From Streptomyces sp. NBC_00878 (GTDB lineage: Bacteria; Actinomycetota; Actinomycetes; Streptomycetales; Streptomycetaceae), in assembly GCF_026341515.1 (NCBI RefSeq), contig NZ_JAPEOK010000001.1:2418001-2482000 (forward strand): a DNA stretch of 64,000 bases. The letters are read 5' to 3'. The notes under the pieces were generated by a model that did not search any database, was not told the DNA's origin, and saw only the letters and a program-made list of their open reading frames with translations. The position numbers and the translations under genes were made by a program. Numbering within the stretch: the first letter of the stretch is position 1; each line of letters opens with the position of its first letter. Positions 28,437 through 48,648 of this stretch are shown piece after piece.

Positions 28437-28450
28437 AGGACATCTATCCT
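28437..28450. promoter_or_regulatory. shared operator candidate 1 (AGGACATCTATCCT)
   Basis: AGGA-N6-TCCT, preceded by TTTTAC, 65 bp upstream of the FAH gene at 28515 and just beyond the IclR pseudogene. One of five related sites in the locus. Confidence 0.6.
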
Positions 28451-28514
28451 GCATTGCGCGACAAGCGTACGATCGGTTGCGGTATCCGGTCAACGAAGGA
28501 AGAGGTGCATCACG

Positions 28515-29354
28515 ATGCGACTGGCCACTCTCAGGACAGGCGAGGGAACGCGTGTGGGACGGCTCGACGGCGACTACTACACGCTGCTCCCACAATCCGA
28601 CCTGGGGGAACTGCTCAACTCCGGCGTCGACTGGCCGCAGGCCGCGCAGCGGGGCGGCGGGATGCGGATCGCGGTTCACGAGGCCCGCTTCGCACCGCTC
28701 GTGCCGCATCCCAACAAGATCGTGTGCCTCGGGCTGAACTACGCCACGCACATCAAGGAGATGGGGCGCGACACCCCCCAGTACCCAACGCTGTTCGCGA
28801 AGTACGACGGCTCCCTCATCGGTGCATACGACCCGATCATTCTGCCGTCCGTCAGTAAGCGGGTGGACTGGGAGGCCGAGCTTGGCGTCGTGATCGGACG
28901 GGCGGGCCGGCACGTCCCGAAGGCAAGGGCGCTGGAATTCGTTGCGGGTTATACCGTGGTCAATGATGTGACGGTGCGTGACTATCAGCGCCGCACACGG
29001 GAGTTCCTCTCCGGAAAGACCTTCGAGGCAACGACGCCGCTCGGGCCGGTCCTGGTGACCGCGGACGAGTTCGGTGGCCAGGAGCCGGACTTGGAGATCC
29101 GCTGCGAGGTCGACGGGGAGGTGATGCAGCAATCCCGCACGTCGGACCTGCTGTTCGGCGTCGCGGACATCGTGTCGTACGTGAGTGACATCATCACTCT
29201 GCTGCCCGGAGACGTCATCTGTACCGGCACCCCCGGGGGCGTCGGCGACGGCCGCGACCCCAAGGTGTACCTCAAGGAGGGGCAGGTGTTGCGGACGGTG
29301 ATCGAGGGAATCGGCGAGACCAGCAACGTCTGCGTGGCCGAGTCGGCTTCCTGA
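28515..29354 (+). CDS. fumarylacetoacetate hydrolase-family protein (first copy)
   Basis: A 279-residue enzyme with FAH-fold metal ligands visible as Glu120 and Glu122 (VDWEAELGVV) and Asp151 (TVVNDVTVRD). It also has the substrate-loop segment KIVCLGLNYATHIKEMG and a C-terminal LLPGDVICTGTPGGVG. Members cleave C-C bonds of acylpyruvates, or isomerise/decarboxylate hydroxy-diene-dioates in meta-cleavage pathways. ATG 28515 follows GAAGAGG. It is a single gene on the plus strand, convergent with the large minus operon, and carries operator candidate 1 in its promoter. Confidence 0.88.
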   Translation: MRLATLRTGEGTRVGRLDGDYYTLLPQSDLGELLNSGVDWPQAAQRGGGMRIAVHEARFAPLVPHPNKIVCLGLNYATHIKEMGRDTPQYPTLFAKYDGSLIGAYDPIILPSVSKRVDWEAELGVVIGRAGRHVPKARALEFVAGYTVVNDVTVRDYQRRTREFLSGKTFEATTPLGPVLVTADEFGGQEPDLEIRCEVDGEVMQQSRTSDLLFGVADIVSYVSDIITLLPGDVICTGTPGGVGDGRDPKVYLKEGQVLRTVIEGIGETSNVCVAESAS

Positions 29355-29413
29355 CACCTCCTGCGCGGGGTGAGGCATCACGACCTGCAGCCCCACCCCG
29401 CGGCCCCGAGGGT

Positions 29414-30505
29414 TCAGGCCCCGGGCTTGAGAACGACACGTCCGACGACGTCGCTGCCTCGTTCCATGAACTCGTGTGCCTCGGCGGCCTTGGCCAACGG
29501 AAAGCGCGCGGCGATGGGCGAGTGCAGCTTCCCTGCGGCAAGCAGCGCCATCACTCGCAGCGCATCGTCGTGCCGTGCTCCGCGGGCGCCGACGATGTCC
29601 GCTTCCAGGCGGGTGAGGTCGAACACGGTGAACGGCATCGGGCCGGGAGGGTTCTGTTCTCCGGCAGCCGGGCAGAGCCGGCCGCCCAGCCGCAACGCGT
29701 CCAGGGCCAGGCGCAGCAGATCGCGGCTGGTGGAGTAGTCGACAGCATGGTCGACGCCCTGCCCGTGGGTGAGGTCCCGTATGGCTTCGGCAGCCGCTTC
29801 GAGGTCATCCGTGACGACGACGTCGTCTCCGCATGCGGCCCGCAGCGCGTCGGCTCGCGCGGCGTGGCGCGTGGTGGCGATGGGGCGGAGCCCGAAGAGG
29901 TGGGCCAGTTGGATGGTGGCCCAGCCCATCGGCCCCGCAGCCCCGGTCACCAGGAGAAAGTCCCCGGCGGTGACCCGCAACCGGTCGCGCAGGATCCGGT
30001 GGCTGGTGCCGTACGAGGCCAGGGTGACCGCCGCCTGTTCCAGGTCGACGTGGTCGGGCACCGGCAGGAAGAGTTGTTGATCGCGTGCCAGGTAGGCGGC
30101 GTAGGAGCCGGGTGCCTGGTGGCCGGGGAGGGCAACGCCGGTGGAGAGGTTGCCCAGGCCGCGGTACGTCTCCCGGGCGTGCGGGTTCTCCGGATGGGCG
30201 GCGAGGACGACCCGGTCTCCTGGCCTCAGCTGCCGCGCGTCGGATCCGGTGGCGATAACGGTTCCCGAGCCTTCCCGTCCCAGTTGGTGAGGCAGGGGGA
30301 AGGGGGCACGGCCGGGCAGCTGAGTGCCGGGCTGGAGCCCCCGGCGATACTTCAGGTCCCACCCGGAGACGGCCGCGGTGTCGACTTCCACCAGGACATC
30401 GGTGGGCCCCAGAGGCGGCAAGGGCAGTTCCTCGTGGACGAGTTGCCCGGGACCGCCGTGTGCGTGAACCCTGACGGCGGCGGTGCTGGTCGGAAGAACG
30501 GTCAC
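29414..30505 (-). CDS. MDR-family NADPH:quinone reductase-like dehydrogenase
   Basis: A 363-residue medium-chain dehydrogenase/reductase of the zinc-free quinone-oxidoreductase branch. GREGSGTVIATG lies in the N-terminal domain and the Rossmann glycine motif is TGAAGPMGWATIQLAHLFG. No structural-zinc cysteine cluster is present. The GTG start overlaps the FAD-monooxygenase stop by 4 bp. It is the last gene of the minus-strand catabolic operon. Probably reduces an unsaturated ketone or quinone intermediate. Confidence 0.82.
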   Translation of the reverse strand: MTVLPTSTAAVRVHAHGGPGQLVHEELPLPPLGPTDVLVEVDTAAVSGWDLKYRRGLQPGTQLPGRAPFPLPHQLGREGSGTVIATGSDARQLRPGDRVVLAAHPENPHARETYRGLGNLSTGVALPGHQAPGSYAAYLARDQQLFLPVPDHVDLEQAAVTLASYGTSHRILRDRLRVTAGDFLLVTGAAGPMGWATIQLAHLFGLRPIATTRHAARADALRAACGDDVVVTDDLEAAAEAIRDLTHGQGVDHAVDYSTSRDLLRLALDALRLGGRLCPAAGEQNPPGPMPFTVFDLTRLEADIVGARGARHDDALRVMALLAAGKLHSPIAARFPLAKAAEAHEFMERGSDVVGRVVLKPGA

Positions 30506-32094
30506 GTGGTCTCCTGTTGCAGGGCCGCGGCCACGGGCAGGATGTCGTCGGGGCCCATGACGGCGGCGATATAGCGGTCGGGTTTGACCAGGACAAAGCG
30601 GTTGCGGGCGGCTGCGAGTACCTCGCCCAGACGGCCGTCGGCGTCGGCGACGGCCTCGCGCGGCCCGCGTACGGGGGGCAGCCGATCACCGAGCAGCACG
30701 TCGATCCGCTTGATGCGCACTCGGTCGTCGGGCCAATGGGGGCCGTCGAAGCGGCGCCAGGCCGCGGCGGGCACGTCGATGCCCAGCAGCGCGTACGCGT
30801 CACCGAGTACCTCGTCGAGCAGGTGTGGGCGCAGGCTCGGTGGCACCAGGACGCGCGGTTGCGGGAGCTGCGTTCCTGTCAGGGGGTGGCCGCCGATGAC
30901 GAGGCCGGCGTCATGCCGAGCGCGCGGCCGGAAGCGCATTTCGGTGAGGTAGCGCCGCCCCGCAGGGGTCTGCAGGAGGGTGCGGGCTGTGAGGTCCCGC
31001 ACCAGAGCGCGTCGCGGGTCGGTGGTCATGACGATGTCGCCAAGGCGTTGGGAGTAGCGGACCATCGCGGAGGCGTGGGGACGGCGCTCGGCCTCGTAGG
31101 TGTCGACGAGTTGTTGTCCGGCCCGGCCGTGCCACACGTCGTCGATCTTCCAGCAGAGGTTCGCGGCGTCCCGTATCCCCGAGTTGAGGCCCTGGCCAGC
31201 GAACGGCGGCATCATGTGTGCGGCGTCGCCGAGCAGCAGGGCGTGCCCGTCGCGCCACCGGTCGGCGATGACAGCGTTGAAGGTATAGGCGGTAACCCGT
31301 TCGATCTGACTCTCGGTCAGGGACCGGTAGGGCTCCACAAGCCGGCGCACCGTCTCGAAGGAGGGCCGCGTGCCCTTTTCGCATTCGCCGGAATGCAGAA
31401 GGAACTCGTATCGGCAGCGTCCGTCACGGCCGGGCACGATGACGGTGGGTCTGTCCGGGGTGCCGCGGTGCATGCCGTAGCGCTCGTCGTGCGGGTCGCC
31501 AGTGGTGTCGGCGACCAGCCACACCTGAGTGTGACTGCTGCCGGTCATGGGGATACCGCGCAGCTCTCGTACGGTGGAGCGGCCTCCGTCGCACGCCAAC
31601 AGCCAACTGGCACGAACGACTTCCGGTGCCGTGGCGCCGGCCGTCCGGATCGCCGCGGTGACGCCGGTGCCGTCGGGGTTCTCCTCCACGCCGACCAGCT
31701 CGGTGGAGAATCGGATATCGGCCTCGGGGCGGGATTTCAGGGCGTCGAGGAGAACCTTCTCCAGTTCGGGCTGGGCGAACTGGTTCTTGAAGGGATAGCC
31801 CAGCTGGTAGGGCCCCGGCCCACGGGCGTGGAAGAGGGGGCGGCCCTTACGGTCGTAGTAGCGAGTGCCGGTACCGGGGACGACGATGTCCAGCACCTGT
31901 TCGGCGAGGCCGGCCGCTTGCAGGGTACGCAGGGATTCGTCGTCCAGACTGATGGCTTTCGCTTCGTCGCTGGTGGAGGTGTTGCGCTCGACCAGAACGA
32001 GCGGGATGCCGCGAGCGGCCAGCAGGTTGGCAACGGTGAGCCCCACCGGGCCGCCGCCCACCACCAGTACCGGGTCGCGGTCGGAGCCGGTCAT
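30502..32094 (-). CDS. FAD-dependent aromatic monooxygenase (MhpA/PheA-like)
   Basis: A 530-residue class A flavoprotein hydroxylase. The dinucleotide-binding GGGPVGLTVANLLAARG lies at residues 12-28, the DG motif ACDGGRSTVRELRGIPM near 165-185 and the GD motif LLGDAAHMMPPFAGQG near 285-300. It should insert one oxygen into a phenolic ring using NAD(P)H. The upstream part of the long frame, out to 32901, is the antisense of the next gene and is not used. It overlaps both neighbours by 4 bp, so it is tightly coupled to the two dehydrogenases. Confidence 0.9.
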   Translation of the reverse strand: MTGSDRDPVLVVGGGPVGLTVANLLAARGIPLVLVERNTSTSDEAKAISLDDESLRTLQAAGLAEQVLDIVVPGTGTRYYDRKGRPLFHARGPGPYQLGYPFKNQFAQPELEKVLLDALKSRPEADIRFSTELVGVEENPDGTGVTAAIRTAGATAPEVVRASWLLACDGGRSTVRELRGIPMTGSSHTQVWLVADTTGDPHDERYGMHRGTPDRPTVIVPGRDGRCRYEFLLHSGECEKGTRPSFETVRRLVEPYRSLTESQIERVTAYTFNAVIADRWRDGHALLLGDAAHMMPPFAGQGLNSGIRDAANLCWKIDDVWHGRAGQQLVDTYEAERRPHASAMVRYSQRLGDIVMTTDPRRALVRDLTARTLLQTPAGRRYLTEMRFRPRARHDAGLVIGGHPLTGTQLPQPRVLVPPSLRPHLLDEVLGDAYALLGIDVPAAAWRRFDGPHWPDDRVRIKRIDVLLGDRLPPVRGPREAVADADGRLGEVLAAARNRFVLVKPDRYIAAVMGPDDILPVAAALQQETT

Positions 32095-33197
32095 GGGTTG
32101 ATTACCGCCATCCAGATCGGCTCGGCGCGGCTCTGCATCGCGGCCACCGCCTCGCCGACGTCGGCAAGCGGGTAGCGGTGGGTGATGAGGTCCTGCGCGT
32201 CGAGGGCTCCGCTGTCGAGGAGAGCGAGCACGTCCTTGGCGTCGGTGCGGGTGCAGGCCCGGGTGCCGACGACCCGCCAGCAGTTCGCCATGATCGCGAT
32301 CATGGGGAGCGTCAAAGGCGCCTGGTTGGCACCCATGTGCACGAGGGTGCCGCCGGTGGCGAGCGCGGCCAGGGACTGGGAGGTGGCGGGGCCTTCCGGA
32401 ATGAAGTCGAGTACGGCGTCGGCGCCCTGGGGTACCAGCTTGCGCAGGGCTCTGGTCAGTCCCTGGCCGGTGCCCCAGTCCGCGGGCAGGTCCTCGATCG
32501 CGACCATGTCGCAGGCGACGTCTCCGGCCAGCCGTCGCACCGCGCTCAGGCGCTCGGCGCTGCGTCCGACGAGGATCAGCCGTCCCACACCGAAGTGCCG
32601 GGCCAGCTTCACGGACGCGGTACCCATGGTGCCGGTGGCAGCGGTGACCACGAGGGTGCCGCCGAGGGGCAGTTGGGCCAGTTTGAGGGCGCGAACGGCA
32701 TTGGCGAGATCGTGGACTTTGGCGCCCACGTCGAAGCTCACCGAGTCGGGCAGGGGGTCTACGAGCCAGTGCGGCACGCGAATGTATTCGGCGAGGCCAC
32801 CGTCGTGATAGCGCTCGTACAACGGCATGGGGACCTCGCCGAACGCGGCGTGCCCGAGCATGGCTTGCTGGGGGCACATCATGTCCCGGTCCGAGCGACA
32901 ATAGGTGCAGCTGCGGCAGTTGAGGTTGGCGTGCACGCGGACGCGAGTGCCGGTCACCATGCCGGTGACATCGGCGCCGACGGCTGCGACAGTGCCCGCG
33001 ACCTCGTGCCCGAGGGTCGTCGGCAGGTGCTTGAAAGCCCCCATTGCCAGCAGCCTCATCATGCCGGGGGCGAGCCCGGCGGAGGCCACCTTGACCAGGA
33101 CGTCCATGGGTCCCGGTTCGGGTATGGAAATCTCTTGCAGGTGCAGCTCGGCAGAGCCCTTTTCGGCGCGCGCCGCCAGCATGGTGTTCGTGTTCAT
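32091..33197 (-). CDS. zinc-type alcohol dehydrogenase lacking the catalytic-zinc cysteine
   Basis: A 368-residue MDR protein with GHEVAGTVAAVG and a four-cysteine structural zinc lobe (NCRSCTYC then CP about 8 residues on). The NAD(P)-binding motif is AATGTMGTASVKLARHFG. The position that normally reads CGICGTD reads SAGLAPGMM here, so the first catalytic zinc ligand is missing. The enzyme may be a zinc-independent reductase. ATG 33197 is 22 bp after the bicupin gene in the operon. Confidence 0.85.
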   Translation of the reverse strand: MNTNTMLAARAEKGSAELHLQEISIPEPGPMDVLVKVASAGLAPGMMRLLAMGAFKHLPTTLGHEVAGTVAAVGADVTGMVTGTRVRVHANLNCRSCTYCRSDRDMMCPQQAMLGHAAFGEVPMPLYERYHDGGLAEYIRVPHWLVDPLPDSVSFDVGAKVHDLANAVRALKLAQLPLGGTLVVTAATGTMGTASVKLARHFGVGRLILVGRSAERLSAVRRLAGDVACDMVAIEDLPADWGTGQGLTRALRKLVPQGADAVLDFIPEGPATSQSLAALATGGTLVHMGANQAPLTLPMIAIMANCWRVVGTRACTRTDAKDVLALLDSGALDAQDLITHRYPLADVGEAVAAMQSRAEPIWMAVINP

Positions 33198-33219
33198 GAG
33201 GTACGGCTCCTCGGTCGTG

Positions 33220-34203
33220 TCAGGCGCCCACAGCGGCGAGGCGTTCTGGGGTGTAGGGCACGGCGGTCCTGGCCGTCTCGGCGACCTGCGGCAGTTCGCG
33301 GTCGCTGTACAGGGAGATGTGTCGGCTCTCCTCGGTGCACACGCTCGCGTGCGCGAGGCCGAGGGGAATGCGGACGAAGTCCCCGGGGCGGAGGTCGACG
33401 ATGCCGCGCTGACTGACGAGGGTGCGCCGTCCGCGGATCTGGTACTGGACCTCGTCGGCGTCGAGGGTGCGCCAGTAGGCGCGCGGGCTGTCCGGTGTCA
33501 GAAGTACGCTGCCCAGCCGGAACCCGGCGGAGCGGTACAGCCAACTCACCCCTGGCCGGTCCGCCCCGGTGAGCACCTGCAGCCGGGCCTTCTCCGCATG
33601 TACCTGTTCCAGGAGCCGGCGTTCGTCGACAGGAGCGACGGTGATGTCGTGTCCCGGAGTACCCAAGCACTGGGTGACGGCCTCGTTGACCGGGCTCGGT
33701 TCCCAGCCGGGGAAGGCCGGGAACACAGGCTCGGACTGCCGTACCGCAGCACGCTCTTCGCGGGCCGGGGAGGGCGTGTAGAAGAGCAGATGGCTTTCGC
33801 GGCGCCCGTAGTTGTCGTGGGCGACTCCGCGCGGCAGCCGGGAGAACTCGCCCGGCCGGTGCTCGACCACGCCGAGCTCGGTCATGAGGGTTCGCTCACC
33901 GGCGATCTGGTACGAGATCTCGTCGACATCGCAGTTGCGGTGATAGAAGGGCTGGCGATTGTCCATCGTCTGCCATTCGACGCGGATCCGAGCGCTTTCG
34001 TAGACGTCCCGAGGCGGAGCGAACGGCACCGCCTCGTACTGCTGGGAGAAGTGGACGACGGTGAGCGGCTCGTGGTCCCGCCACAGCTTCATCGGCAAGG
34101 GACTGGGGTGCGGGGGCGAGAGCAGGAGATGCTCTTCGCGCTCGACGACACGCGACGGTTCGTCGGAGAAGACGACCGCGATGGATTCGGTGACGGTACC
34201 CAT
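33220..34203 (-). CDS. bicupin protein, homogentisate/gentisate dioxygenase-like
   Basis: A 327-residue protein with two cupin halves: residues 80-155 with FYHRNCDVDEISYQIAGE and RPGEFSRLPRGVAHDNYG, and residues 235-305 with DEVQYQIRGRRTLVSQRG and LRPGDFVRIPLGLAHASV. The arrangement resembles homogentisate 1,2-dioxygenase-like proteins, which use Fe(II) to open a dihydroxy-aromatic ring. Histidine spacing in the second half is reduced, so ring-cleavage activity is not certain. Its position between dienelactone hydrolase and dehydrogenase genes fits aromatic catabolism. Confidence 0.72.
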   Translation of the reverse strand: MGTVTESIAVVFSDEPSRVVEREEHLLLSPPHPSPLPMKLWRDHEPLTVVHFSQQYEAVPFAPPRDVYESARIRVEWQTMDNRQPFYHRNCDVDEISYQIAGERTLMTELGVVEHRPGEFSRLPRGVAHDNYGRRESHLLFYTPSPAREERAAVRQSEPVFPAFPGWEPSPVNEAVTQCLGTPGHDITVAPVDERRLLEQVHAEKARLQVLTGADRPGVSWLYRSAGFRLGSVLLTPDSPRAYWRTLDADEVQYQIRGRRTLVSQRGIVDLRPGDFVRIPLGLAHASVCTEESRHISLYSDRELPQVAETARTAVPYTPERLAAVGA

Positions 34204-34266
34204 GAAACTTCCTTGTTTCGTCGGGGTGCTGGCAGTGTCGGGGTGCTGGCAGTACTGCCCCGGACG

Positions 34267-35013
34267 TCAGACGCCCGGGGGAAGGTGGATGTCGAGGAAG
34301 GCGTGCGTGCGCTGCCAGGCGGTGTGTGCGCTGTTCGCGTCGTACATGTTGGGGCGGGCATCACAGGCGAAGGCGTGCCCGGCGCCCGTATAGACGTGGC
34401 TCTCGAAGTCGACTCCCGCGGTCGTCAGGGCGGTTTCGATCGCCTCGACCTGTTCGGCGGGGATGGTGGGGTCCTCGGCCCCGACGTGCAGCAGCATGGG
34501 GGCATCGATGTTCTTGGCCCGGTCCACGACCGCGTGCGGGCCGGCGGCGATGCCGGGGCCGTAGAAAACGACGGTAGCTGCGAGTCCGCCGATGCCAGTG
34601 GCTGCCGTGAAGGCGGCTCGGCCGCCGAAGCAGAACCCGTTGACGGCCGTGCGGGAAACCTCGATGGCCTCCTGGTCGCCGAGGTGGGCCAGGACGGCTT
34701 CGATGTCGGTCACGATCGCGTCCGGCCCGATCGCGCCGATCAGGGGCATCGCTTCAGCGTGCTGGTCGTAGGTGAGGGTGCCGACGCCGTTGCGGTGGAA
34801 CAGGTCGGGGGCGAGGGCAAGGATGCCGCGGGCGGCATAGCGGCGTGCAATGTCCTGGATGTGTTCGTTGACGCCGAATGCCTCCTGCAGGACGATCACC
34901 GCCCGGTCCGTTCGGCCGGCGGGGCGGGCCGCATACACGCGCATGAGACCGTCAGCGGTGCGGACGGTGAGCCACTCGGTCGTCTCACGGGTGGGGGCGG
35001 TCTGGTCGTTCAT
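34267..35013 (-). CDS. dienelactone hydrolase family protein
   Basis: A 248-residue alpha/beta-hydrolase. The DLH nucleophile is Cys128 (NGFCFGGRAAF), the helper glutamate lies in VLQEAFGVNEHI near residue 44, and Asp/His follow in GAEDPTIP and TGAGHAFAC. DLH enzymes hydrolyse dienelactones from ortho-type ring cleavage to maleylacetate. ATG 35013 follows a GGACCC-type weak ribosome site; a longer frame upstream overlaps the aldolase gene. Part of the minus-strand operon. Confidence 0.88.
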   Translation of the reverse strand: MNDQTAPTRETTEWLTVRTADGLMRVYAARPAGRTDRAVIVLQEAFGVNEHIQDIARRYAARGILALAPDLFHRNGVGTLTYDQHAEAMPLIGAIGPDAIVTDIEAVLAHLGDQEAIEVSRTAVNGFCFGGRAAFTAATGIGGLAATVVFYGPGIAAGPHAVVDRAKNIDAPMLLHVGAEDPTIPAEQVEAIETALTTAGVDFESHVYTGAGHAFACDARPNMYDANSAHTAWQRTHAFLDIHLPPGV

Positions 35014-35026
35014 GGCACAGGGTCCT

Positions 35027-35785
35027 TCACTGGGACGGGGACGAGGAGTGATCGTTCGATGCGGGAGCGGGCCGGGCGGTGCCTGACACCGAAGCGCGGG
35101 CGACGCGGCGCAGGAGGTAGTGCCATCCGGCCTCCAACTGGCTGTCCGGCCAGCACTCGGCGCGCTTGGCTCGTGCCTCGGCAAGGTCGGAGTGGACGCG
35201 GACCGCACCGGCCGCTGTGGCGGTGAGCTGGACGGCGCAGGCCCGATCGAGCAGAACGGCGTGCATGACGGCAGCCGGCACTGTGCGGCCGGCGGAAACC
35301 AGGCCGTGGCTGGGCATCAGGGCTGCGGGGGCCTCGCCCAGGGTCGCGGCAAGCGCTCTGCCCAGTGCCGGGGTGGAGACGAGTCCGCCGGTGGCCTTGA
35401 AGCGCGGCGCGTCCTCGCCGGCAAAGAGGGCGCCCTCGTGGGAGAGGGGGAGCAGTTCCTGCCCGAGGGCCGCGAATGCGACCGCGCTGGGGGCGTGGGT
35501 GTGCACGGTGCACGTCAGGTCGGGTGACGCTGCAAGGATCTCCAAATGGATGTGGCACTCCTTGTGCGGGGCGCCGTCACCTTGCAGCACTTGGCCGTCG
35601 AAGGAGACGAGTTGGAGGCGGTCCTCGCGCACCTCTTCCAGGCCCCAGCCCGGTGCTTTGATCCAGATGCCGTCGCCGCGCGGGTCGCGCACGGCGACAT
35701 GACCCCAGACCATGTCGCCCTGCCCGGCCGCGGCCAGGGCGTGGGAGGCCTCGACGGCGAACCGGCGGGCCTGGTCCGGTGTCAT
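35027..35785 (-). CDS. class II aldolase/adducin family protein
   Basis: A 252-residue protein with zinc-site histidines in CTVHTHAPSAVAF and MPSHGLVSAG, plus the GDMVWGHVAVRD N-terminal segment. The family includes fuculose-type aldolases and aromatic-pathway decarboxylases and aldolases. ATG 35785 overlaps the TAXI-protein stop by 4 bp, and the gene is followed by the dienelactone hydrolase 13 bp on. It may perform a final retro-aldol or decarboxylation step. Confidence 0.85.
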   Translation of the reverse strand: MTPDQARRFAVEASHALAAAGQGDMVWGHVAVRDPRGDGIWIKAPGWGLEEVREDRLQLVSFDGQVLQGDGAPHKECHIHLEILAASPDLTCTVHTHAPSAVAFAALGQELLPLSHEGALFAGEDAPRFKATGGLVSTPALGRALAATLGEAPAALMPSHGLVSAGRTVPAAVMHAVLLDRACAVQLTATAAGAVRVHSDLAEARAKRAECWPDSQLEAGWHYLLRRVARASVSGTARPAPASNDHSSSPSQ

Positions 35786-36765
35786 GACGCTGCGGGCAGC
35801 GCGTCGAAATAGCGCCGTGCTCCCGGGTGCAGCGGGATGGGTGTCCTACCCATGGTGACCGGGTCGAGGGGGTAGGTGATCGGGCTTCTCTCCGGGGCGA
35901 GATGGCGGTACTGCGCTTCGATCTGGTGTCGCGTCTCGCCAAGCACCCATGCGATGGCGTAGGCGAGGTCATCAGGGAGGTCGGATCGGGTCAGCACGAG
36001 GAAGTCGGAGAAGTCGAGGGTGCGGAATGCGGAACGCCCGGGGAAGTAGCCGTCCTCGACGTCGGCGGCGGGCCAGCCGTAGTCGTCCCGGAGACCGGCG
36101 AGGACTTCCTCCTCGACCTCGAGGAAGTTCAGGTCCCGGCCGATGTCCTGCCAGTCAGGCAGCATGACCGCCTCCTGGACTATGGCGTTCGCCCGGCCTT
36201 GCTTGACGTGCTCAAGCGCTTCGAAAGGTCGCTCGTCCTGGAGTAGTCGGCCGCCCCAGCCGGTGACATCGACACCCGACCGGGTCAGAACCTCGTGGGC
36301 GGCCAGCCCGACGTGGTTGACGTCGTCGTGGACCGCGGTGGCCAGGCGTAGCGCGGGCTTGTGCCGGCGCAGCTCGGCGAAGGTAGTGATGCCCAGGTCC
36401 CGGTGGACAGCGACGACCAGGCGGTCGCGCTGCGGAACGACACCAAGGGCCCGCAGGTCCGGATAGTGCTCGCCCGTGTAGACGCCCCTCCCGTCGAGGG
36501 CAGCGGCCGCGAAGGCGGCCGGCGTGGTCAGCGCCACCTGGACCTCACCGCGGCCGACCGCGTGGACGGCATCGCTGAAACCTCGGCTGTTCCAGGTCGC
36601 AATGCGCGTGTGCGGGCCGCAGCGGTCGGCCAGCTCCTGGGCGATCCAGCCGCAGACCCGGTGGAGGTTGGCGCCGCCCCAGTCGCCACGCAGATGCAGC
36701 GTGAGGGATCGCTCTATGCGGGGTTCATCCGGTCGCCCGTGCGGGGCGGGTGTCGGACTCATCAT
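35782..36765 (-). CDS. TAXI-family solute-binding protein without signal peptide
   Basis: A 327-residue periplasmic-binding-type protein resembling TAXI TRAP receptors/NMT1-like proteins (WNSRGFSDAVHAVGRGEVQV; ALTTPAAFAAAAL; ALEHVKQGRANAIVQEAV). The N-terminus is polar (SPTPAPHGRPDEPRIERS): no signal peptide or lipobox is seen, and no TRAP membrane subunits are encoded nearby. It is first gene of the seven-gene minus operon. It may be a cytosolic ligand sensor or enzyme. Two adjacent ATGs (36765, 36762) follow a GGAG site; operator candidate 2 lies 20 bp upstream. Confidence 0.7.
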   Translation of the reverse strand: MMSPTPAPHGRPDEPRIERSLTLHLRGDWGGANLHRVCGWIAQELADRCGPHTRIATWNSRGFSDAVHAVGRGEVQVALTTPAAFAAAALDGRGVYTGEHYPDLRALGVVPQRDRLVVAVHRDLGITTFAELRRHKPALRLATAVHDDVNHVGLAAHEVLTRSGVDVTGWGGRLLQDERPFEALEHVKQGRANAIVQEAVMLPDWQDIGRDLNFLEVEEEVLAGLRDDYGWPAADVEDGYFPGRSAFRTLDFSDFLVLTRSDLPDDLAYAIAWVLGETRHQIEAQYRHLAPERSPITYPLDPVTMGRTPIPLHPGARRYFDALPAAS

Positions 36766-36784
36766 GGCTCCAGTCCTGATTTAG

Positions 36785-36798
36785 AGGACGCATGTCCT
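36785..36798. promoter_or_regulatory. shared operator candidate 2 (AGGACGCATGTCCT)
   Basis: AGGA-N6-TCCT, 20 bp upstream of the first gene of the large minus-strand catabolic operon, where it could block the promoter. The 317-bp gap 36766-37082 holds this site and otherwise no gene. Confidence 0.65.
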
Positions 36799-37082
36799 GC
36801 TTTTTGGTCAGCATAGATCCAGTCACCCGGAGAAGCGAGAGCTGTGCGAAGTGGATCCAGTGATCACCTCTGGGGCTGAACCCATACGGAACAAGAGGCC
36901 AAGGGGTGCCGTTACGGCAGGGCCGTCGCCTGGCGCGTATTCACGTACCGCCGGACACGAAGGGGGGCGGCAGTCACGCGGTCGTCAAGATTACCTCTCG
37001 CAGCTTCGGGCTGGCGAAAAGTTCTGATACGTAGGACACTAGTCTTCTTATTCGAGACTCTACGGACTCGAAGATGGTCCCC

Positions 37083-37874
37083 TCAGGCGCTCTCGCCACT
37101 GCCGGCGCCCGGGGGGTCGCATTCCGCGACACAGCGCAAGAGGGCTGCCGCATCCCGCTTGTCCAGGGCGTCGACAAGGTCGGCGTGCAACCGGTGCCGG
37201 GCCCGGAGGTACTCGGCGGGCGAGCCGTGAGGAGGCAGCACTTCGACGGCGTGGCCTTCGACAAGATCCTGCAGATTGACGTAGAGCGACCGTAGGAGGG
37301 CGTTCGGTGTGATGTCGGCGACACACTTGTGCAGTTGCCGGTGGGACCGGGCAAACGCGTCCATGTCTCCGGCCTGGCCCGCCCCGTCCATCTCTTTCAG
37401 CAGAACGCGCAGGTCTCGGACGTCAGCGGGCGAGGCGTGCCACAGCGCGTCCTGCCACAGCAGTGGTTCCAGGGCATCGCGGATCCGCAGGGCGTCGTCG
37501 GCATCCGCCTGCAAGCCGTCCAGCGCGAGGATGGAGTGGCCGAGCCGGACCATGGGGGTCTGCTCGATCGCGAAGAGGCCTCCGCCCGGCCCTGGCCGGA
37601 CCGTGACGAGCCCGCGCGACAGGAGCAGCCGCAGTGCCTCGTTGAACGTTCCGACCGACACGCCGCAGTGGGCCCGGAGCTCCTCCTTCGTTCCGAGCCG
37701 GGTGCCAGGCGCGACGCCCGAGGCGATCCGTGCCACGGCCCGCGCGGCCGCGTCCGCCCGCGAATTCGCCGGGGTTTGCCCCCAGTCCCCCCGCTGCAGC
37801 GCCGGAGGGTCGACGCTCCCGGCTGTCGCGCCCGGCCTGCCGCCCTGCGTCCCGCCCGCCTCCCGCGTCCCCAC
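37083..37874 (-). CDS. FadR-subfamily GntR transcriptional regulator
   Basis: A regulator of about 263 residues: winged helix near residues 45-100 (GTKEELRAHCGVSVGTFNEAL) and an alpha-helical FCD ligand domain with His-containing metal-site segments (FARSHRQLHKCVADI; ARHRLHADLVDAL). GTG 37874 has a well-placed AGGGGAG ribosome site; GTG 37898 is an alternative adding 8 residues. It diverges from the flavin-reductase operon and probably controls it through the palindrome at 37973-37988. Confidence 0.82.
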   Translation of the reverse strand: MGTREAGGTQGGRPGATAGSVDPPALQRGDWGQTPANSRADAAARAVARIASGVAPGTRLGTKEELRAHCGVSVGTFNEALRLLLSRGLVTVRPGPGGGLFAIEQTPMVRLGHSILALDGLQADADDALRIRDALEPLLWQDALWHASPADVRDLRVLLKEMDGAGQAGDMDAFARSHRQLHKCVADITPNALLRSLYVNLQDLVEGHAVEVLPPHGSPAEYLRARHRLHADLVDALDKRDAAALLRCVAECDPPGAGSGESA

Positions 37875-37972
37875 TGAGTCTCCCCTCACTACGAACACCT
37901 CTTCAGATTCATTGTGATGAATAGATTCGCACCTCTTGACGTCAGGCGAAACAGGGATACAGCATCAAACGT

Positions 37973-40667: not shown

Positions 40668-40693
40668 ACACCCGTCCGCCCAGGGAGTGCCGC

Positions 40694-41614: not shown

Positions 41615-41649
41615 TAGCCCTCCGCGCTCAAGGAGTCTCAGTGGCGAAG

Positions 41650-42240
41650 TCAGGCCGCCTGCGCGACCGGTGGGGCGGAGGTGAATGCCCGGTTGTCGCG
41701 CAGCAGTGCCCATAGGACGCCGGCTCGCCGACGGGCCAGGGCGACGACGGCCTGGACGTGCTTGAGCCCTTCGCCGCGTTTCCCGAGGCAGAAGTCCCGG
41801 CTCGGTCCCTCGCGGATGATGCTGGTCTGCGCAGACATGTGGAACACCCGTCGCAGGCGGCGGCTGTAGCGCTTGGGCCGGTGCAGATTGCCGGTCCGGC
41901 GGCCCGAGTCGCGGGGAACGGGCACCAGCCCGGCCGCGGAGGCGAGATGGCCTGCGTCGGCGTAGGCCGGCAGGTCACCGGCCGCCACAACGAACTCCGC
42001 CCCGAGCATCGGCCCGATGCCGGGCAGTGACTCGATCATCTCCGCTCGCGGATGGCTGCGGAAGGCGTCACGGATCTGCCGGTCGGTGCTCTTGAGGCGG
42101 TTGTCCAGGGCGAGGATCTGAGCGCCCAGGTCGGCGACGATCTCAGCGCCGACGTCCTCCCCGGGCAACGCGGTCTGCTGGTCCTGGACGGCTTGCGGGG
42201 CTATGGCCGCGACATTGTCGGCAGCCATAGCCCCGAGAGC
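41650..42240 (-). pseudogene. IS110-family transposase remnant (second, C-terminal part)
   Basis: The minus frame encodes the C-terminal domain of an IS110/IS116-type transposase: LPGEDVGAEIVADLGAQILA, MIESLPGIGPMLGAEFVVAA, AAGLVPVPRDSGRRTGNLHR and ALARRRAGVLWALLRDN. The N-terminal catalytic DEDD domain is missing. It differs from the remnant at 20.6 kb and appears to have cut the end of the plus-strand catabolic operon. Confidence 0.8.
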
Positions 42241-42329
42241 CGGACGGCCACTCCTTGGGAGCCGCTGAGGGCAAGCCGCATAAGCCGCATCCGGTCCTCC
42301 CTGGCCGCCCAACAACTACGGAGCTTGCA

Positions 42330-42455: not shown

Positions 42456-42619
42456 ACACGCCCCACCTCCACCACCGACGAGATGCCAGCCACCGGAACC
42501 AGCCGATGCGCTCCGCACCCCTGCCCGCCAGTGCGTCTTTGCTGCCCGCACACAACCACCCCGGCAGGAGAGCATTGCTTTCCTCGCCATTGCCCTGCTA
42601 TACAGGTCATAGGTTCTAT

Positions 42620-42640
42620 TTTACGGGACATCTTGACGGT
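42620..42640. promoter_or_regulatory. shared operator candidate 3 (half-site form)
   Basis: TTTTACGGGACATCTTGACGG aligns with operator candidate 1 (TTTTACAGGACATCTATCCTG) at 16 of 21 positions; the right arm is degenerate. It is 150 bp upstream of the YciI-like gene. Confidence 0.45.
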
Positions 42641-42792: not shown

Positions 42793-43134
42793 ATGTGGCA
42801 TCTCACTCTGCACCGTTGGACCGGCGACAGAGAGGCGACGGTCCAACATGCGCTCGAACACCTTGATGACCACCTGGCATGGATGCGCGAGCAGCAGCTC
42901 GCGGGCAAAGTCCTGATAGCCGGCCCGACCCCGGACAAGGAGCTCGGGATCATGCTCTTCGGGCACATGTCGAAGCAGGACGTCCACGAGCTGTGCCGCA
43001 CGGATCCCTTCATCTCCGCCGGCCTCCGGGAGTACGAAGTCATCCCGTGGGAGGTGCACCACCTGCTGGGCATCGGCGCTTTCGACACCAGGACGGTGAA
43101 CGCAATGAACCAGGCCAAGGCACACCAGACCTGA
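42793..43134 (+). CDS. YciI-like small enzyme
   Basis: A 113-residue ferredoxin-like-fold protein (LTLHRWTGDREATVQHALEH; LAGKVLIAGPTPDKELGIML; FISAGLREYEVIPWEVHHLL) resembling YciI/muconolactone-isomerase-sized proteins. Such proteins take part in late aromatic catabolism or dehalogenation. ATG 42793 follows GTTGGAGGCACC. Operator candidate 3 is in its upstream region, and an ABM gene lies 306 bp downstream; that 306-bp gap shows no gene. Confidence 0.7.
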   Translation: MWHLTLHRWTGDREATVQHALEHLDDHLAWMREQQLAGKVLIAGPTPDKELGIMLFGHMSKQDVHELCRTDPFISAGLREYEVIPWEVHHLLGIGAFDTRTVNAMNQAKAHQT

Positions 43135-44606: not shown

Positions 44607-45065
44607 TCACCCACCGAGTGTTTCCGTCATGCGGTCCAGGTCGGCGAGAAGGGTGGCGAGGCGTTTCGGCGGGACGGCGTCGGTCATCTGCTGGTCGATG
44701 GTGTAGACGGCAGAGCGTGCCGCGGCGAGGCGACGGTGGCCCTCCTCGGTGAGGTGGGTGGGCAGAGCACGGCCATGGTCTGTAGAGGTCGCGCGGATGA
44801 TCAGGCCGGCATCCTTCAGTCCACGCAGGACGACGTTCATGGACTGCCGGGTGACGAAGGTGCCGCGGGCCAGCTCGGCGTTGGACAGCCCGGGTTGCTG
44901 GTCGAGCAGTTCGAGACAGGCATACTGCGGCACGGTCAGGCCGTACTCGCGCAGGGCCCTGTCCATCGCGCCGCGCAGCGCGGCCGCCGCGCGTTTGAGG
45001 CGGTAGCCCAGTCGCTCGGTCACGTCGGCGGCCGGGATCGGGTCGGTGGTTGTCCCATCACTCAT
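44607..45065 (-). CDS. MarR family transcriptional regulator
   Basis: A 152-residue winged-helix regulator (YGLTVPQYACLELLDQQPGL; NAELARGTFVTRQSMNVVLR; DHGRALPTHLTEEGHRRLAA). ATG 45065 is chosen since the 14 extra upstream codons lie in the divergent promoter. It diverges from the VOC-AlkA gene pair and likely represses it. The intervening TGTCAGGAGTTTGACA / TGTCAAAGTCCTGACA pair (about 45064-45126) are candidate binding sites. Confidence 0.85.
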   Translation of the reverse strand: MSDGTTTDPIPAADVTERLGYRLKRAAAALRGAMDRALREYGLTVPQYACLELLDQQPGLSNAELARGTFVTRQSMNVVLRGLKDAGLIIRATSTDHGRALPTHLTEEGHRRLAAARSAVYTIDQQMTDAVPPKRLATLLADLDRMTETLGG

Positions 45066-45150
45066 GTCAGGAGTTTGACATAGCCGAGGCGAGGCGCCTA
45101 CCGTCACTCATGTCAAAGTCCTGACATCGAGCATGTTTGAGGAGCACCTT

Positions 45151-45528
45151 GTGACCACCGCCGTTTCCGTCACCGGGCCCGACTTCATCGCACTGCAGGT
45201 GCGTGACGTCGACACGGCCGCCGCCTTCTTCGAGACACAGCTCGGGCTGCGCCGGGCCCCCGCCTCACCCCCCGGCGCCGTGGTGTTCATCACCGAGCCC
45301 GTCGCGTTCGCCGTCCGCGAGCCCCTGCCGGGCGTGGACCTCGACAGTGTGGAGCAGCCCGGCCTCGGCGTCGCCCTGTGGTTCAGGACCAGCGACGCCC
45401 AGGCCCTCCATGACCACCTCCAGGCCGCCGGGACCCCCATCGTCAAGGCACCGGAGGACGGCCCGTTCGGCAGGATGTTCACCTTCCTCGGCCCCGAGGG
45501 CTACGCCATCACCGCGCACGGGAACTGA
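45151..45528 (+). CDS. VOC family (glyoxalase/bleomycin-resistance fold) protein
   Basis: A 125-residue single-module VOC protein (FIALQVRDVDTAAAFFETQL; VALWFRTSDAQALHDHLQAA; MFTFLGPEGYAITAHGN). GTG 45151 follows GAGGAG at good spacing; ATG 45133 is a weaker start. Members bind or isomerise electrophilic compounds or act as resistance proteins. It diverges from the MarR gene and precedes the AlkA-like gene by 2 bp, so the two form an operon. Confidence 0.82.
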   Translation: MTTAVSVTGPDFIALQVRDVDTAAAFFETQLGLRRAPASPPGAVVFITEPVAFAVREPLPGVDLDSVEQPGLGVALWFRTSDAQALHDHLQAAGTPIVKAPEDGPFGRMFTFLGPEGYAITAHGN

Positions 45529-45530
45529 CC

Positions 45531-46481
45531 GTGCACGCCTTCACCATCACCCCGCAAGGGCCCTTCTCCCTCGCAGCCGGTCTCAGCTTCCTGAAGGGCT
45601 TCACTCCTGCCGGATATCACGACACCGCACAAGACCAGACGCTGCGCCTGGCATTCCCCGCCGACGACGGCCACTCGACCGTCGGCGTCGAAGTGAGACA
45701 GGCAGACGGCCCTCAGGGCATCGTGGAGGCGGAGGCCATCGTGCACACCGGCCGGCCCTGCGAGGGGCGGGCCCGGACGGCCACAGAAACCGAGCCCGAC
45801 CCGTCTTCCCCCGGGATGGATGTGGTGCGGCAGCAACTGGCGCGCGTCCTCTCGCTCGACGTCGACGGCAGCGGGTTTTCCCAGCTCGCCAAGGGCGATC
45901 CCGTCATGGCCGAGCTCATCTCGGCATACCCGGGACTGCGGCCGGTGTGCTTCCACTCCCCGTACGAAGCAGCGGCCTGGGCAGTCATCGGCCACCGCAT
46001 CCGCATGGTCCAGGCCGCCGCGATCAAAGCCCGCGTCGCCGAACACCACGGACAGCACGTCACCGTCGCTGGCCGCACCTTGCACGCCTTTCCCACCCCG
46101 CTGGTCCTGCGCCGGCTCGACCGCATCCCCGGGCTGCCCGACACCAAGGTCGAACGCCTGCGCCACCTCGCGGACGCAGCTCTCGCCGGCCACCTGAACG
46201 CCAGCCAACTGCGGGCGATGCCTGCCAAGGATGCCCTTGCCCATCTTCAGGCATTGCCCGGCATTGGCCCGTTCTCCGCCGAGCTGATCCTCATCCGCGG
46301 CTCCGGGCACCCCGACGTCTTCCCACGGCACGAACCCCGACTGCACGCCGCGATGGCGCGCGCCTACGGTCTGAGCGATCCGGACGCCTCAGACACGAAC
46401 CGCCTCGCCGACATCAGCAACCGCTGGGCGCCCTACCGCAGCTGGGCCGCCCTCCTGTTGCGCACGCACAGCGGGACGTGA
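45531..46481 (+). CDS. DNA-3-methyladenine glycosylase 2 family protein (AlkA-like)
   Basis: A 316-residue base-excision-repair glycosylase with an N-terminal TBP-like lobe (residues 1-95) and a helix-hairpin-helix GPD domain. The hairpin is LQALPGIGPFSAELILIRGS near 240-260, and the catalytic aspartate region is SGHPDVFPR near 263. It removes alkylated bases from DNA. GTG 45531 starts 2 bp after the VOC gene. MarR control of a VOC-glycosylase pair suggests defence against an electrophile (inference). Confidence 0.85.
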   Translation: MHAFTITPQGPFSLAAGLSFLKGFTPAGYHDTAQDQTLRLAFPADDGHSTVGVEVRQADGPQGIVEAEAIVHTGRPCEGRARTATETEPDPSSPGMDVVRQQLARVLSLDVDGSGFSQLAKGDPVMAELISAYPGLRPVCFHSPYEAAAWAVIGHRIRMVQAAAIKARVAEHHGQHVTVAGRTLHAFPTPLVLRRLDRIPGLPDTKVERLRHLADAALAGHLNASQLRAMPAKDALAHLQALPGIGPFSAELILIRGSGHPDVFPRHEPRLHAAMARAYGLSDPDASDTNRLADISNRWAPYRSWAALLLRTHSGT

Positions 46482-46732
46482 TGGTGCGTCGTCTGAAATC
46501 GCCCGACCTCCTGAATCCCCTTCGCAACCGATGCGTCACCCTGTTCAAAACAGCCACCCCGACTCGGACAGGCCCCGGGGGCATCTGTTGATTACTCAAC
46601 CGAGCGTGGACGGAGAGCAGGACTGGTGATTTTCACGAATCCGCATCATCCGTCGTTTCCGAGGTCGCGACAACAACATGGAGTCCGCTGGACCCGATGC
46701 CCCGCAGCACCTGAACCGTTCCGGTACCGACG

Positions 46733-46772
46733 CGACTACGCGCTCCGCGGGATCCCGCGGAGCGCGTAGTCG
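46733..46772. repeat. perfect 40-bp palindrome
   Basis: Each 20-bp arm begins CGACTACGCGCTCCGCGGGA, and there is no spacer. It lies in the 466-bp gap 46482-46947 between the convergent AlkA-like and IclR genes, where I see no gene. It could act as a bidirectional terminator or be a rearrangement scar. Confidence 0.9.
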
Positions 46773-46947
46773 GCCTGGAGGTGCACGTCCCGCTCTTCCC
46801 CTCCTGAAGGGCCCCGCAGCACAGACGATCCCATGTCCGAGCAAGATCAAGGCGGGGGCAGTCCGGGTCTGTGGCCTCACCGGCAGGCGGGAGCGCGGTC
46901 CTCGGCATCTTGGATCGCAGCTCGCGTTCTCGACGCCTGGACTGCGG

Positions 46948-47778
46948 TCAAGCGTCGAGAACGGCGAGCTGTTCGCTGATGCGCCCGGCTGCCTCGCGCA
47001 CAGCGGTGGCAAGTGCCGGGACTCGTTCGTGGGGCACCCGGTACGACAACGCCGCAATACTCACTGCCGCGGTCACCTCTCCTCTGGCGTCCCGGATGGG
47101 GGCGGCGATGCCCATCACGTCCTCGTCGAGTTCGCCGCTGGAAATGGCGATGTTCTCGCTGCGGATCGTCTGAAGCCGTCGGCGCAGCGTGGCCGGGTCC
47201 GTCACGGTGGCGCCGGTGAATCGCGGAAGGCCGCCGTTCTGCGTGAGCACCCGTTCCACCTCCTCATCCGGCGCCCAAGCCAGAAGCACGAGGGCGGCGG
47301 CACCGGCGTTGACAGGCAGGACGTGGCCGCGCTCGTAGGACAGGCGCACAGGTTGGTCGGCCTCCTCCCGTTCCAGACAGACCACCACCGTGCCCGAACG
47401 ACGGGTGAGCAGCACGGTCTCCGATGCTTCGGCGGCCAGCTCGCGCATGACAGGCCGCGCCACCTCGGACAGGCCGAGCCCCTTGCGGGCCAGTCGGGCC
47501 AGCTCGAACACGCGCGGCCCGAGCCGATATCCGGTGGGCTGCTGCTCCTCAATGAAGCCGGAGCCGACCAGGCTCTGCAGATAGCGGTAGGCAGTCGACC
47601 GTGCCACACCGAGCCGGGTGGCGACCTCCTGTCCGCTGATGACCAAGCGGTTGTCGTCGAAGAGGAGCAGGATGTCCAGTGCCCGGTCGGCGGTGGAGTT
47701 GCGTTCGCGATACGAGGTGGTCGATCCGCCGGTGGCCTCTTCGCTTTTCTGCTCTACTCGAGCCTTACGTCCCGTCAT
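46948..47778 (-). CDS. IclR family transcriptional regulator (intact)
   Basis: A 276-residue regulator with an N-terminal winged helix (ALDILLLFDDNRLVISGQEV; GVARSTAYRYLQSLVGSGFI) and a GAF-like IclR effector domain (ALVLLAWAPDEEVERVL; ISSGELDEDVMGIAAPIRDA). ATG 47778 lies about 8 bp after a TACAAT -10-like element, suggesting a leaderless transcript; ATG 47787 is possible. Operator candidate 4 touches its start. IclR proteins commonly control aromatic-acid catabolism. It is the best candidate for the protein that binds the shared sites. A decayed paralogue lies at 28.0-28.4 kb. Confidence 0.9.
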   Translation of the reverse strand: MTGRKARVEQKSEEATGGSTTSYRERNSTADRALDILLLFDDNRLVISGQEVATRLGVARSTAYRYLQSLVGSGFIEEQQPTGYRLGPRVFELARLARKGLGLSEVARPVMRELAAEASETVLLTRRSGTVVVCLEREEADQPVRLSYERGHVLPVNAGAAALVLLAWAPDEEVERVLTQNGGLPRFTGATVTDPATLRRRLQTIRSENIAISSGELDEDVMGIAAPIRDARGEVTAAVSIAALSYRVPHERVPALATAVREAAGRISEQLAVLDA

Positions 47779-47780
47779 GC

Positions 47781-47794
47781 AGGACATTGTATGC
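47781..47794. promoter_or_regulatory. shared operator candidate 4 (AGGACATTGTATGC)
   Basis: Left arm and core match the other sites, the right arm is degenerate, and it lies immediately before the IclR start codon; fits autoregulation. Confidence 0.5.
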
Positions 47795-47993
47795 GGAGAG
47801 TAGTTCGAATCATTAATCTGCTGGCGAAACACGGCACGGGGTGACGAGGGCCCCCACTCGTTGCTACGCAGGCGCCAGCGGGTGGGAAACCACGAAACTT
47901 CAGCGCTTCTTGCGAAGACTGTCCCGGCGTTCACGCCGGGGAGGGAATCGCATCCGGACGTCGCGAGGTCCGCCTCATGCACCCCGCGCACAC

Positions 47994-48134
47994 CCCATGG
48001 ACTGCGCATCATGCGGAGCGAGAATCAGGCACACACTTCCTCTGTCTGAACGCACCTGCACCTGCACCACATGTGGAGCCGCACCCCCGAGTTCCTTTCC
48101 GTCGCGGCGCAGGCACTGGCGGATCTCGATGATT
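47994..48134 (+). pseudogene. TnpB-like zinc-ribbon remnant (IS200/IS605 type)
   Basis: The frame reads DCASCGARIRHTLPLSERTC and TTCGA, resembling the C-terminal CxxC...CxxC zinc ribbon of TnpB. Nothing else of the element is recognisable. The rest of 47795-48672 shows no intact gene. Confidence 0.5.
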
Positions 48135-48634
48135 TGATCGAACCGCGCAGCGCACTTCCCGACTTCGTGCGCAGCGGATCCCTGAAGGCGAAGCGTCGTA
48201 GTGACGCCCCTGCGACCGGGCCGGGCATTCTGGACCCTGAGGCGCCCCCGCTCCCGCAGCGAACGAGGCGCGGCGTCAACAGATCGACCCGCGACGTGTC
48301 ACGGCTGACAGCCGGGGCCTACAAACCAGCGAGGCCGGACCAGGCGAGGTCGGTACGGGCAGGAGGCCGACCACCGAGCTGCCCACCGGCGCTCACCGCG
48401 TTGCGAGGAGTGGTCAGGACAACAGTCCAAAGCCGACTCAGCCGGCGAGGCGGAGCAGAACGCGGCGGCTCTCAAGACCCGGACGGGAGACCGGGAGTGT
48501 GCTGCGCAGACCGCACTGGAGACGGGCTGCCCGAGTGCCGCCCACAGGGGGCAGCACGGCCGGCCGCACAGCGCGTCCAACCCCGTTCTTCGTTGACCGC
48601 CGATGACTCACGACCGTAAGATGATTCGAAATAT

Positions 48635-48648
48635 AGGATGCATGTCCT
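48635..48648. promoter_or_regulatory. shared operator candidate 5 (AGGATGCATGTCCT)
   Basis: AGGA-N6-TCCT followed by GTAAA, 25 bp upstream of the VOC gene at 48673. ATGATTCGAA precedes it and also occurs upstream of site 4. Confidence 0.65.

Follow-up and report, generated by a model that had tools for sequence, protein, structure and literature searches.

A paired 17-bp operator predicted for an IclR-family regulator in a putative aromatic-catabolism island of Streptomyces sp. NBC_00878

Introduction

In a 64,000-nucleotide stretch of the Streptomyces sp. NBC_00878 genome (contig C1, positions 2418001-2482000; hereafter the window), genes with apparent roles in aromatic catabolism lie scattered on both strands, raising the question of which DNA signal joins them and which protein reads it. 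An initial annotation of the window proposed that a short palindrome, AGGA-N6-TCCT, links a gene of the FAH family, a seven-gene operon on the minus strand, a VOC gene, a YciI-like gene and the gene of an IclR-family regulator into one regulon, with the IclR protein as the best candidate binder. Our analysis supports a regulon comprising these genes, but through a longer pattern. The predicted operator unit is a 17-bp inverted repeat, GTCCTG-N5-CAGGAC, or GTCCYG-N5-CRGGAC when its arms are written in degenerate form. It recurs as doublets, whose two centres lie 21 bp (two helical turns) apart. We place the probability that such pairs are the operator, and that the IclR protein encoded at 46948-47778 is its binder, at roughly 0.85, judging from sequence comparisons.

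Results and discussion

The predicted operator and its doublet geometry

Three exact copies of AGGA-N6-TCCT are present at 28437, 36785 and 48635, just where they were first reported. Taken alone, they are weak evidence, because three or more matches arose in 4 of 100 shuffles of the window and because the whole genome holds 59 copies (144 for the pattern read backwards); the initial annotation had itself named genome-wide commonness without a link to these genes as grounds for abandoning the motif. Relatives of the IclR protein (E<=1e-60) were found in 9 of 295 genomes of the genus, its own included, with 11 copies in total. Within about 1.5 kb of four of the ten copies from other genomes, namely the four closest relatives, the same palindrome recurs with conserved outer arms, and the operator is therefore read as two copies of GTCCYG-N5-CRGGAC. 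AGGA-N6-TCCT is the seam between them, in which a 4-bp linker joins the end of the first unit to the start of the second. A 38-bp matrix built from seven sites, three in the window and four from relatives, recovered two further sites outside its training set, at 37033 (32.8) and 42604 (30.9), compared with a best score of 9.2 in the reversed window. Of the two weaker sites in the initial annotation, that at 42620-42640 proved genuine but extends further, as doublet D4, whereas that at 47781-47794 covers just one end of a single unit, S6 (Table 1). Doublets D3 and D7 had not been listed before.

Loci around more distant relatives of the regulator reveal the same geometry. A scan of one genome per species yielded 76 loci with IclR relatives of 54-73% identity (best segment), many of them from Actinomadura, Nocardia, Streptomyces, Amycolatopsis and Rhodococcus, and others from Nonomuraea and further genera. 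With at most one mismatch allowed, GTCCTG-Nk-CAGGAC occurred 108 times in these loci at k=5, versus 13 times in reversed sequence; across the other spacers (k 0-12), the next largest excess was found at k=9 (38 versus 29), and counts were 13 versus 7 at k=1 and 7 versus 1 at k=2. A symmetrised unit matrix, begun from a consensus chosen by eye and refined on the 76 loci with the window unused, gave 158 unit pairs at 21 bp in these loci, against 5 in reversed sequence. Strict doublets numbered 154, distributed over 70 of 77 sequences (the 76 loci and the window, which contributed six), and none appeared in reversed sequence or in 42 control loci of 127 kb. All 154 correspond to the 21-bp spacing, whereas no other spacing between 12 and 32 bp gave more than nine; 117 were left once near-identical copies had been removed.

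A sequence-only model, R1, was built from 50 of the 117 non-redundant doublets and their reverse complements with the window excluded (one site from genome G121 was entered twice, on opposite strands). In a search of the full genome (11,124,787 bases in 6 contigs), in which 150 of 389 first-look candidates received a score, five window doublets took the top five distinct ranks: D1 (27.1 bits, E 4.7e-5), D2 (20.5), D4 (19.1), D5 (18.6) and D3 (14.3). The sixth-best place, C1:3617426, lies outside the window and was taken as chance (13.6 bits, E 0.96). D7 has good unit-matrix scores but reaches only 6.0 bits (E 1.5) with R1 in the window and is not among the genome matches listed; it is thus graded as probable. 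A partnerless unit at 12353-12369, scoring 14.8 against a reversed-window best of 13.3, was attributed to chance. Two looser patterns were dropped as insufficiently specific for a G+C-rich genome: a first extended pattern without A/T demands, which matched 285 of the 295 genus genomes (4 matches in the own genome against 0 backward), and GTCNCG-N6-AGG-N9-CCT with two mismatches, for which the own genome gave 2692 matches and the backward control 3057.

Assignment of the binder

With model R1, a doublet at E<=0.003 was detected in 5 of the 295 genus genomes (G000, G077, G108, G121 and G244), all of which belong to the nine that carry this IclR protein. The chance of such nesting, computed by hand and ignoring relatedness, is about 7e-9; among the five, G121 supplied rows to the model and the other four supplied none. 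Moreover, the segment ARSTAYRYLQSL, which spans the recognition helix, is identical in 11 aligned IclR proteins. The IclR protein is thus very likely the binder, since doublet genomes nest within IclR genomes while the GntR, MarR and MocR-type regulators of the window do not follow the motif.

Several results weigh against this assignment. Four of the nine IclR genomes (G007, G011, G220 and G222) lack a doublet at E<=0.003 in a genus search whose strict filters lose weak matches. Near the IclR gene, the 38-bp matrix finds weaker sites above the reversed-sequence maximum in G007 (17.6), G011 (20.8) and G222 (32.5), and no match in G220, where the contig is just 3850 bases long. No strict doublet was found in 7 of the 76 loci (L078, L096, L105, L123, L131, L136 and L147). 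Since the unit matrix was itself derived from the 76 loci, the counts made in them are in part circular; the window, reversed-sequence, control and genus tests escape this, apart from the rows that G121 supplied to model R1. Finally, the genome-wide ranking covers only the scored fraction of candidates given above.

A single unit on the IclR start codon

The regulator combines an N-terminal IclR helix-turn-helix domain (HTH_IclR, PF09339, 2e-12) with a C-terminal IclR effector domain (IclR_C, PF01614, 2.4e-37), as is expected of the family. Its predicted structure has a mean pLDDT (predicted local distance difference test score) of 76.7, with low confidence over residues 1-34, and all 50 Foldseek matches listed for the fold are IclR-family entries.

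Unlike the pathway genes, the IclR gene is associated with a solitary unit (S6, GTCCCGTCATGCAGGAC), the dyad centre of which falls on the start codon. The same arrangement, a single unit centred on the in-frame IclR start codon, was found in 55 of the 77 loci. Among 43 non-redundant loci of this kind, the gap between the end of a TANNNT hexamer and the ATG is exactly 7 nucleotides (nt) in 37 and 6 nt in five, other listed gaps occurring once each. A Shine-Dalgarno-like sequence precedes the start in only three of the 43, and the N-terminus reads M-S-G, M-T-G, M-A-G or M-P-G in every one. Based on the corresponding window sequence, TACAAT-gtcctgc-ATG-acgggac, the IclR start was put at 47778, giving 276 residues. 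This layout suggests that the gene is leaderless and self-regulated, the simplest reading being an mRNA that starts at the operator centre. Because the dyad centre is the ATG itself, selection on the operator would dictate both the N-terminal M-(S/T/A/P)-G and the seven bases before the gene. The chances seem even that the self-operator, leaderless start and first codons are one shared 17-bp stretch in this way and that one unit against two makes a built-in affinity ladder, in which a dimer would act on the single unit of the regulator gene and a tetramer on the pathway doublets. A start-codon-centred operator on a leaderless gene would represent a compact design for autoregulation, and one that is directly testable.

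This trait does not seem general to IclR genes. In the own genome, 22 of 23 IclR_C matches could be assessed (one had no candidate start in range), and 30 of 36 FCD matches served as a yardstick. TANNNT lies 6-8 nt before an in-frame ATG or GTG in 2 of the 22 IclR genes (this gene and L176), compared with 4 of the 30 FCD genes. Start-codon-centred leaderless sites common to the whole family were thereby rejected for this genome, and the feature seems to be specific to this IclR clade. A survey of IclR-family operators, cited here from the part of it that was covered, describes site centres as peaking prominently between -3 and +1 of the gene start, a feature which that part leaves unexplained (Suvorova and Gelfand, 2021; PMC8222616). 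The start-centred sites of the present clade could belong to this peak; elsewhere in the own genome, IclR genes mostly lack such a site.

Promoter geometry and the sign of regulation

Doublets before VOC relatives keep close to the gene: of 60 doublet-gene pairs in 42 loci (related ones counted), 41 have the doublet centre 10-34 nt ahead of the VOC start. In the window, D5 is centred 31.5 nt before the VOC start at 48673 and D2 26.5 nt before the minus operon, with 7 nt separating the doublet itself from that operon's first start codon. The remaining distances are 71.5 nt for D1 and the FAH gene, 182.5 nt for D4 and the YciI-like gene, and 274.5 nt for D3 and the minus operon. Candidate -10 boxes cluster around the doublets. 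TANNNT occurs at offsets -7, -6 and -4 in 13, 12 and 24 of 234 orientations, against a background mean of 0.26 per offset (-58 to -20), and 51 of the 117 non-redundant doublets have it at -7 to -4 on either strand. The position is not a single one, because hexamers are also frequent inside doublets (mean 2.4 per offset, with 20 at offset 17) and just after them (10 each at offsets 43 and 46, compared with 0.69 beyond); the conserved T of the unit explains part of the counts at -4 and 17.

On balance, the IclR protein probably represses the pathway promoters, since a hexamer at -7 to -4 would put the start site under the doublet and since the architecture of its own gene points the same way. 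It would regulate a pathway of aromatic ring hydroxylation and cleavage encoded nearby, and would bind GTCCTG-N5-CAGGAC as a dimer. At the pathway promoters, two dimers would sit side by side on the same helix face, occupying units with a 21-bp spacing. They would overlap or flank the -10 box and keep the promoter closed until released by an aromatic effector. On the regulator's own leaderless gene, a lone dimer bound to the single unit centred on the start codon, presumably also the transcription start, would exert a milder self-repression. Binding, tetramer formation, repression and effector response are all predictions of this model.

The chief competitor is activation. PcaU/PobR-type members of the IclR family activate their promoters. 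The present protein might bind the same sites while activating the pathway and repressing only itself, which we consider possible but distinctly less probable than repression. The centres of D1 and D4, 71.5 and 182.5 nt upstream of their start codons, suit activation as well and count against repression, as does the inclusion of activators in the family (Suvorova and Gelfand, 2021). D1 also ends ahead of a -10-like TACGAT, and wherever TANNNT falls just past a doublet (offsets 43 and 46), bound protein would stand upstream of the -10 box. The enrichment at -7, -6 and -4, where the doublet covers the start site, argues in favour of repression.

Other readings of the motif and other candidate binders

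According to the initial annotation, one IclR dimer would recognise the 14-bp AGGA-N6-TCCT palindrome itself. The inner arms are indeed kept in doublets, and the pattern stands at three window promoters; however, 47 strong units are solitary, which shows that GTCCTG-N5-CAGGAC does not depend on the inner palindrome for its existence. In addition, AGGA-N6-TCCT has 39 matches in 1.43 Mb, of which 32 lie between two units, two adjoin one unit and five adjoin none, while 7 to 8 matches would be expected at the rate of the own genome (59 per 11.1 Mb). The palindrome as an operator in its own right is accordingly very unlikely, and the case illustrates how a short palindrome picked by eye can be the seam of two real sites.

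The initial annotation also saw no other regulator of matching spread at the locus. The IclR protein remains by far the best candidate, but genes for GntR/FCD, MarR and MocR-type regulators had been overlooked. The GntR/FCD gene directly adjoins D3, and a doublet likewise adjoins a GntR relative in loci L108, L110 and L134. The motif nevertheless does not follow the GntR gene, either in the 76 loci or across the genus. A GntR relative is present in only 5 of the 76 loci, whereas 69 have doublets. GntR relatives occur in 10 of the 295 genus genomes, seven of which have neither this IclR nor a doublet; they are absent from three of the five doublet genomes and coincide with a doublet only in G000 and G121. 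In G222 the two regulators occur together, and no doublet reaches the threshold. The GntR/FCD protein is thus rejected as the binder with little hesitation, its odds being slightly poorer still than those of the short palindrome. The MarR protein was rejected because a relative exists in only 2 of the 76 loci, and the MocR-type protein (gene at 21377-22867) because none does.

Inverted repeats are typical of mobile element ends. A conserved non-regulatory repeat of this kind, or a DNA-structure motif that happens to sit in the island, might be invoked given two transposase-like open reading frames recognised by eye (41650-42315, minus strand; 49479-49850, plus strand), but is next to impossible in view of the exact N5 and 21-bp geometry, the recurrence ahead of orthologues in several genera, the association with a single regulator clade, the lack of any strong match elsewhere among the scored candidates of the own genome and the absence of doublets at E<=0.003 from the 286 genus genomes without this IclR.

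Comparison with known IclR systems

IclR-family operators fall into two groups. In 94 of 181 orthologous groups, palindromes were reported in tandem at a centre-to-centre distance of 18-22 nt, as would fit tetramers, and the same survey discusses IclR-family tetramers on DNA (Suvorova and Gelfand, 2021). The 21-bp spacing of the present doublets lies within this range. Group 1 has the consensus GKTYCRYW3-4RYGRAMC, and the present unit shares its geometry, a 17-18 bp palindrome with an A/T-rich centre (as judged from the symmetrised matrix and the N5 spacer), and the two are also alike in tandem spacing, a link to aromatic catabolism and the peak of centres at -3 to +1. The bases differ at 4 of 15 compared positions, two per half, as would fit an altered specificity, and Table 1 of that survey, as covered, contains no GTCCTG-N5-CAGGAC motif. 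Among the consensuses compared from this table, that of NdgR/LtbR of Actinobacteria (KTYCRSMWYSYGRRM) has the lowest share of mismatches (3 of 13 positions), but it is shorter and belongs to a regulator of amino-acid biosynthesis. HutR of Corynebacterium resistens (GTCTGWWATWCCAGAC), also an actinobacterial IclR protein, has similar GTCTG/CAGAC-like arms; its 16-bp motif differs from the present unit at 4 of 14 compared positions and serves histidine utilisation.

TtgV of Pseudomonas putida, an efflux regulator in complex with its operator (PDB 2XRO), resembles the predicted structure in its IclR fold (2xro_B, Foldseek E 2.5e-15), at 25% identity in the structural alignment, and its operator differs from GTCCTG-N5-CAGGAC. 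A Microbacterium IclR homologue with 4-hydroxybenzoate (PDB 7CUO, 7DQB) shares the fold, an actinobacterial origin and an aromatic ligand, at 31-32% identity.

No description of GTCCTG/CAGGAC with an IclR protein was found in the open-licence literature, as judged by titles and abstract openings. The covered part of PMC6904314 contains CAGGAC strings in primers and nothing on such operators, and that of PMC6710988 nothing on them either. The motif, which the initial annotation did not recognise from described IclR operators, matches the published operators in architecture but not in its exact bases. Since tandem IclR-family sites 18-22 nt apart have already been reported (Suvorova and Gelfand, 2021), the predicted operator is best seen as a known architecture with different bases, set apart by these and by an unusually tidy self-operator. 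A binding motif, target set and promoter architecture can now be proposed for an IclR clade without a description in the literature searched. The clade occurs in Actinomadura, Nonomuraea, Nocardia, Rhodococcus, Amycolatopsis, Streptomyces and others, and with these predictions the pathway substrate and effector can be sought.

Regulon genes and the surrounding island

Table 1. Predicted operator sites and principal genes of the window (positions counted from its first base; unit scores from the unit matrix, which was not trained on the window).
Feature	Position	Strand	Remarks
Doublet D7 (probable)	26289..26326 (units 26289-26305, 26310-26326)		unit scores 16.4, 22.6
Doublet D1	28425..28462 (units 28425-28441, 28446-28462)		upstream of FAH gene starting 28515; unit scores 28.7, 22.7
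TACGAT	28468-28473		TANNNT-like, near D1
FAH-family hydrolase gene	28515..29354	+	regulon member; PF01557, 216.7 bits; relative in 64/76 IclR loci
Seven-gene operon	29414..36765	-	putative regulon member (Pfam)
FAD monooxygenase gene	30502-32094	-	in minus operon; relatives in 63/76 IclR loci
Solute-receptor-like protein gene	35782-36765	-	first gene of minus operon
Doublet D2	36773..36810 (units 36773-36789, 36794-36810)		unit scores 21.7, 10.3
TATGCT	36810-36815	-	near D2
Doublet D3	37021..37058 (units 37021-37037, 37042-37058)		between GntR gene and D2; unit scores 20.6, 20.2
GntR/FCD regulator gene	37083..37898	-	PF07729, PF00392
Doublet D4	42592..42629 (units 42592-42608, 42613-42629)		upstream of YciI-like gene at 42793; unit scores 18.4, 24.1
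YciI-like protein gene	42793..43134	+	probable regulon member; PF03795; relative in only 2/76 loci
MarR-family regulator gene	44607..45107	-	PF12802
IclR-family regulator gene	46948..47778	-	276 aa from dyad ATG (MTGRKAR...)
Single unit S6	47769..47785		dyad centre on IclR start codon; score 22.4
TACAAT	47786..47791	-	-10-like hexamer of probable leaderless promoter, 7 nt before IclR ATG (47776-47778)
TAAGAT	48617-48622		-10-like, directly before D5
Doublet D5	48623..48660 (units 48623-48639, 48644-48660)		upstream of VOC gene; unit scores 20.9, 26.4
VOC (extradiol-dioxygenase-like) gene	48673..49167	+	regulon member; PF00903, 69.2 bits for the reading frame from 48661; relative in 45/76 loci

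The minus operon encodes a solute-receptor-like protein, a class II aldolase family protein, a dienelactone hydrolase family protein, a cupin-like protein, an alcohol dehydrogenase, a FAD monooxygenase and a second alcohol dehydrogenase. The VOC start was set at 48673 because GAGGAG precedes it. Further FAH and VOC proteins, a flavin reductase and an acyl-CoA-dehydrogenase-like (HsaA-like) oxygenase were also recognised in the island through Pfam and NCBIfam, and by these families the island looks like an aromatic ring-hydroxylating and ring-cleaving pathway.

The first product of the minus operon has a TAXI-TRAP solute-receptor fold (Foldseek 1us4, 8u79; model pLDDT 86.8), no signal peptide evident by eye, and tblastn relatives in 25 of the 76 loci; no Pfam match to a membrane transporter family was obtained for any of the seven products. 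This first product may be a cytosolic enzyme or sensor derived from the solute-receptor fold. The cupin-like protein (33223-34203, minus strand) has a sub-threshold Pfam match only, and at the thresholds used neither NCBIfam nor the PDB sequences yielded a relative; its relatives occur in 29 of the 76 loci.

The arrangement of operators and genes varies among loci. In L108 (17561-17598) and L110 (15861-15898), a doublet beside the GntR relative, on the same GntR side as D3, precedes a PNPOx-type gene. As this gene is not found at the corresponding place in the window, D3 may be a left-over operator or one that now serves the minus operon. FAH and VOC genes diverge around one doublet in L100, L110 and L134; in the window they lie 20 kb apart, each with its own doublet. 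The two transposase-like reading frames described above lie between or beside regulon members, which suggests that the island has been rearranged. Before FAH relatives, paired doublets with starts approximately 77-80 bp apart recur (L076, L079, L080, L082-L085 and L087-L089), suggesting a larger four-unit array or looping.

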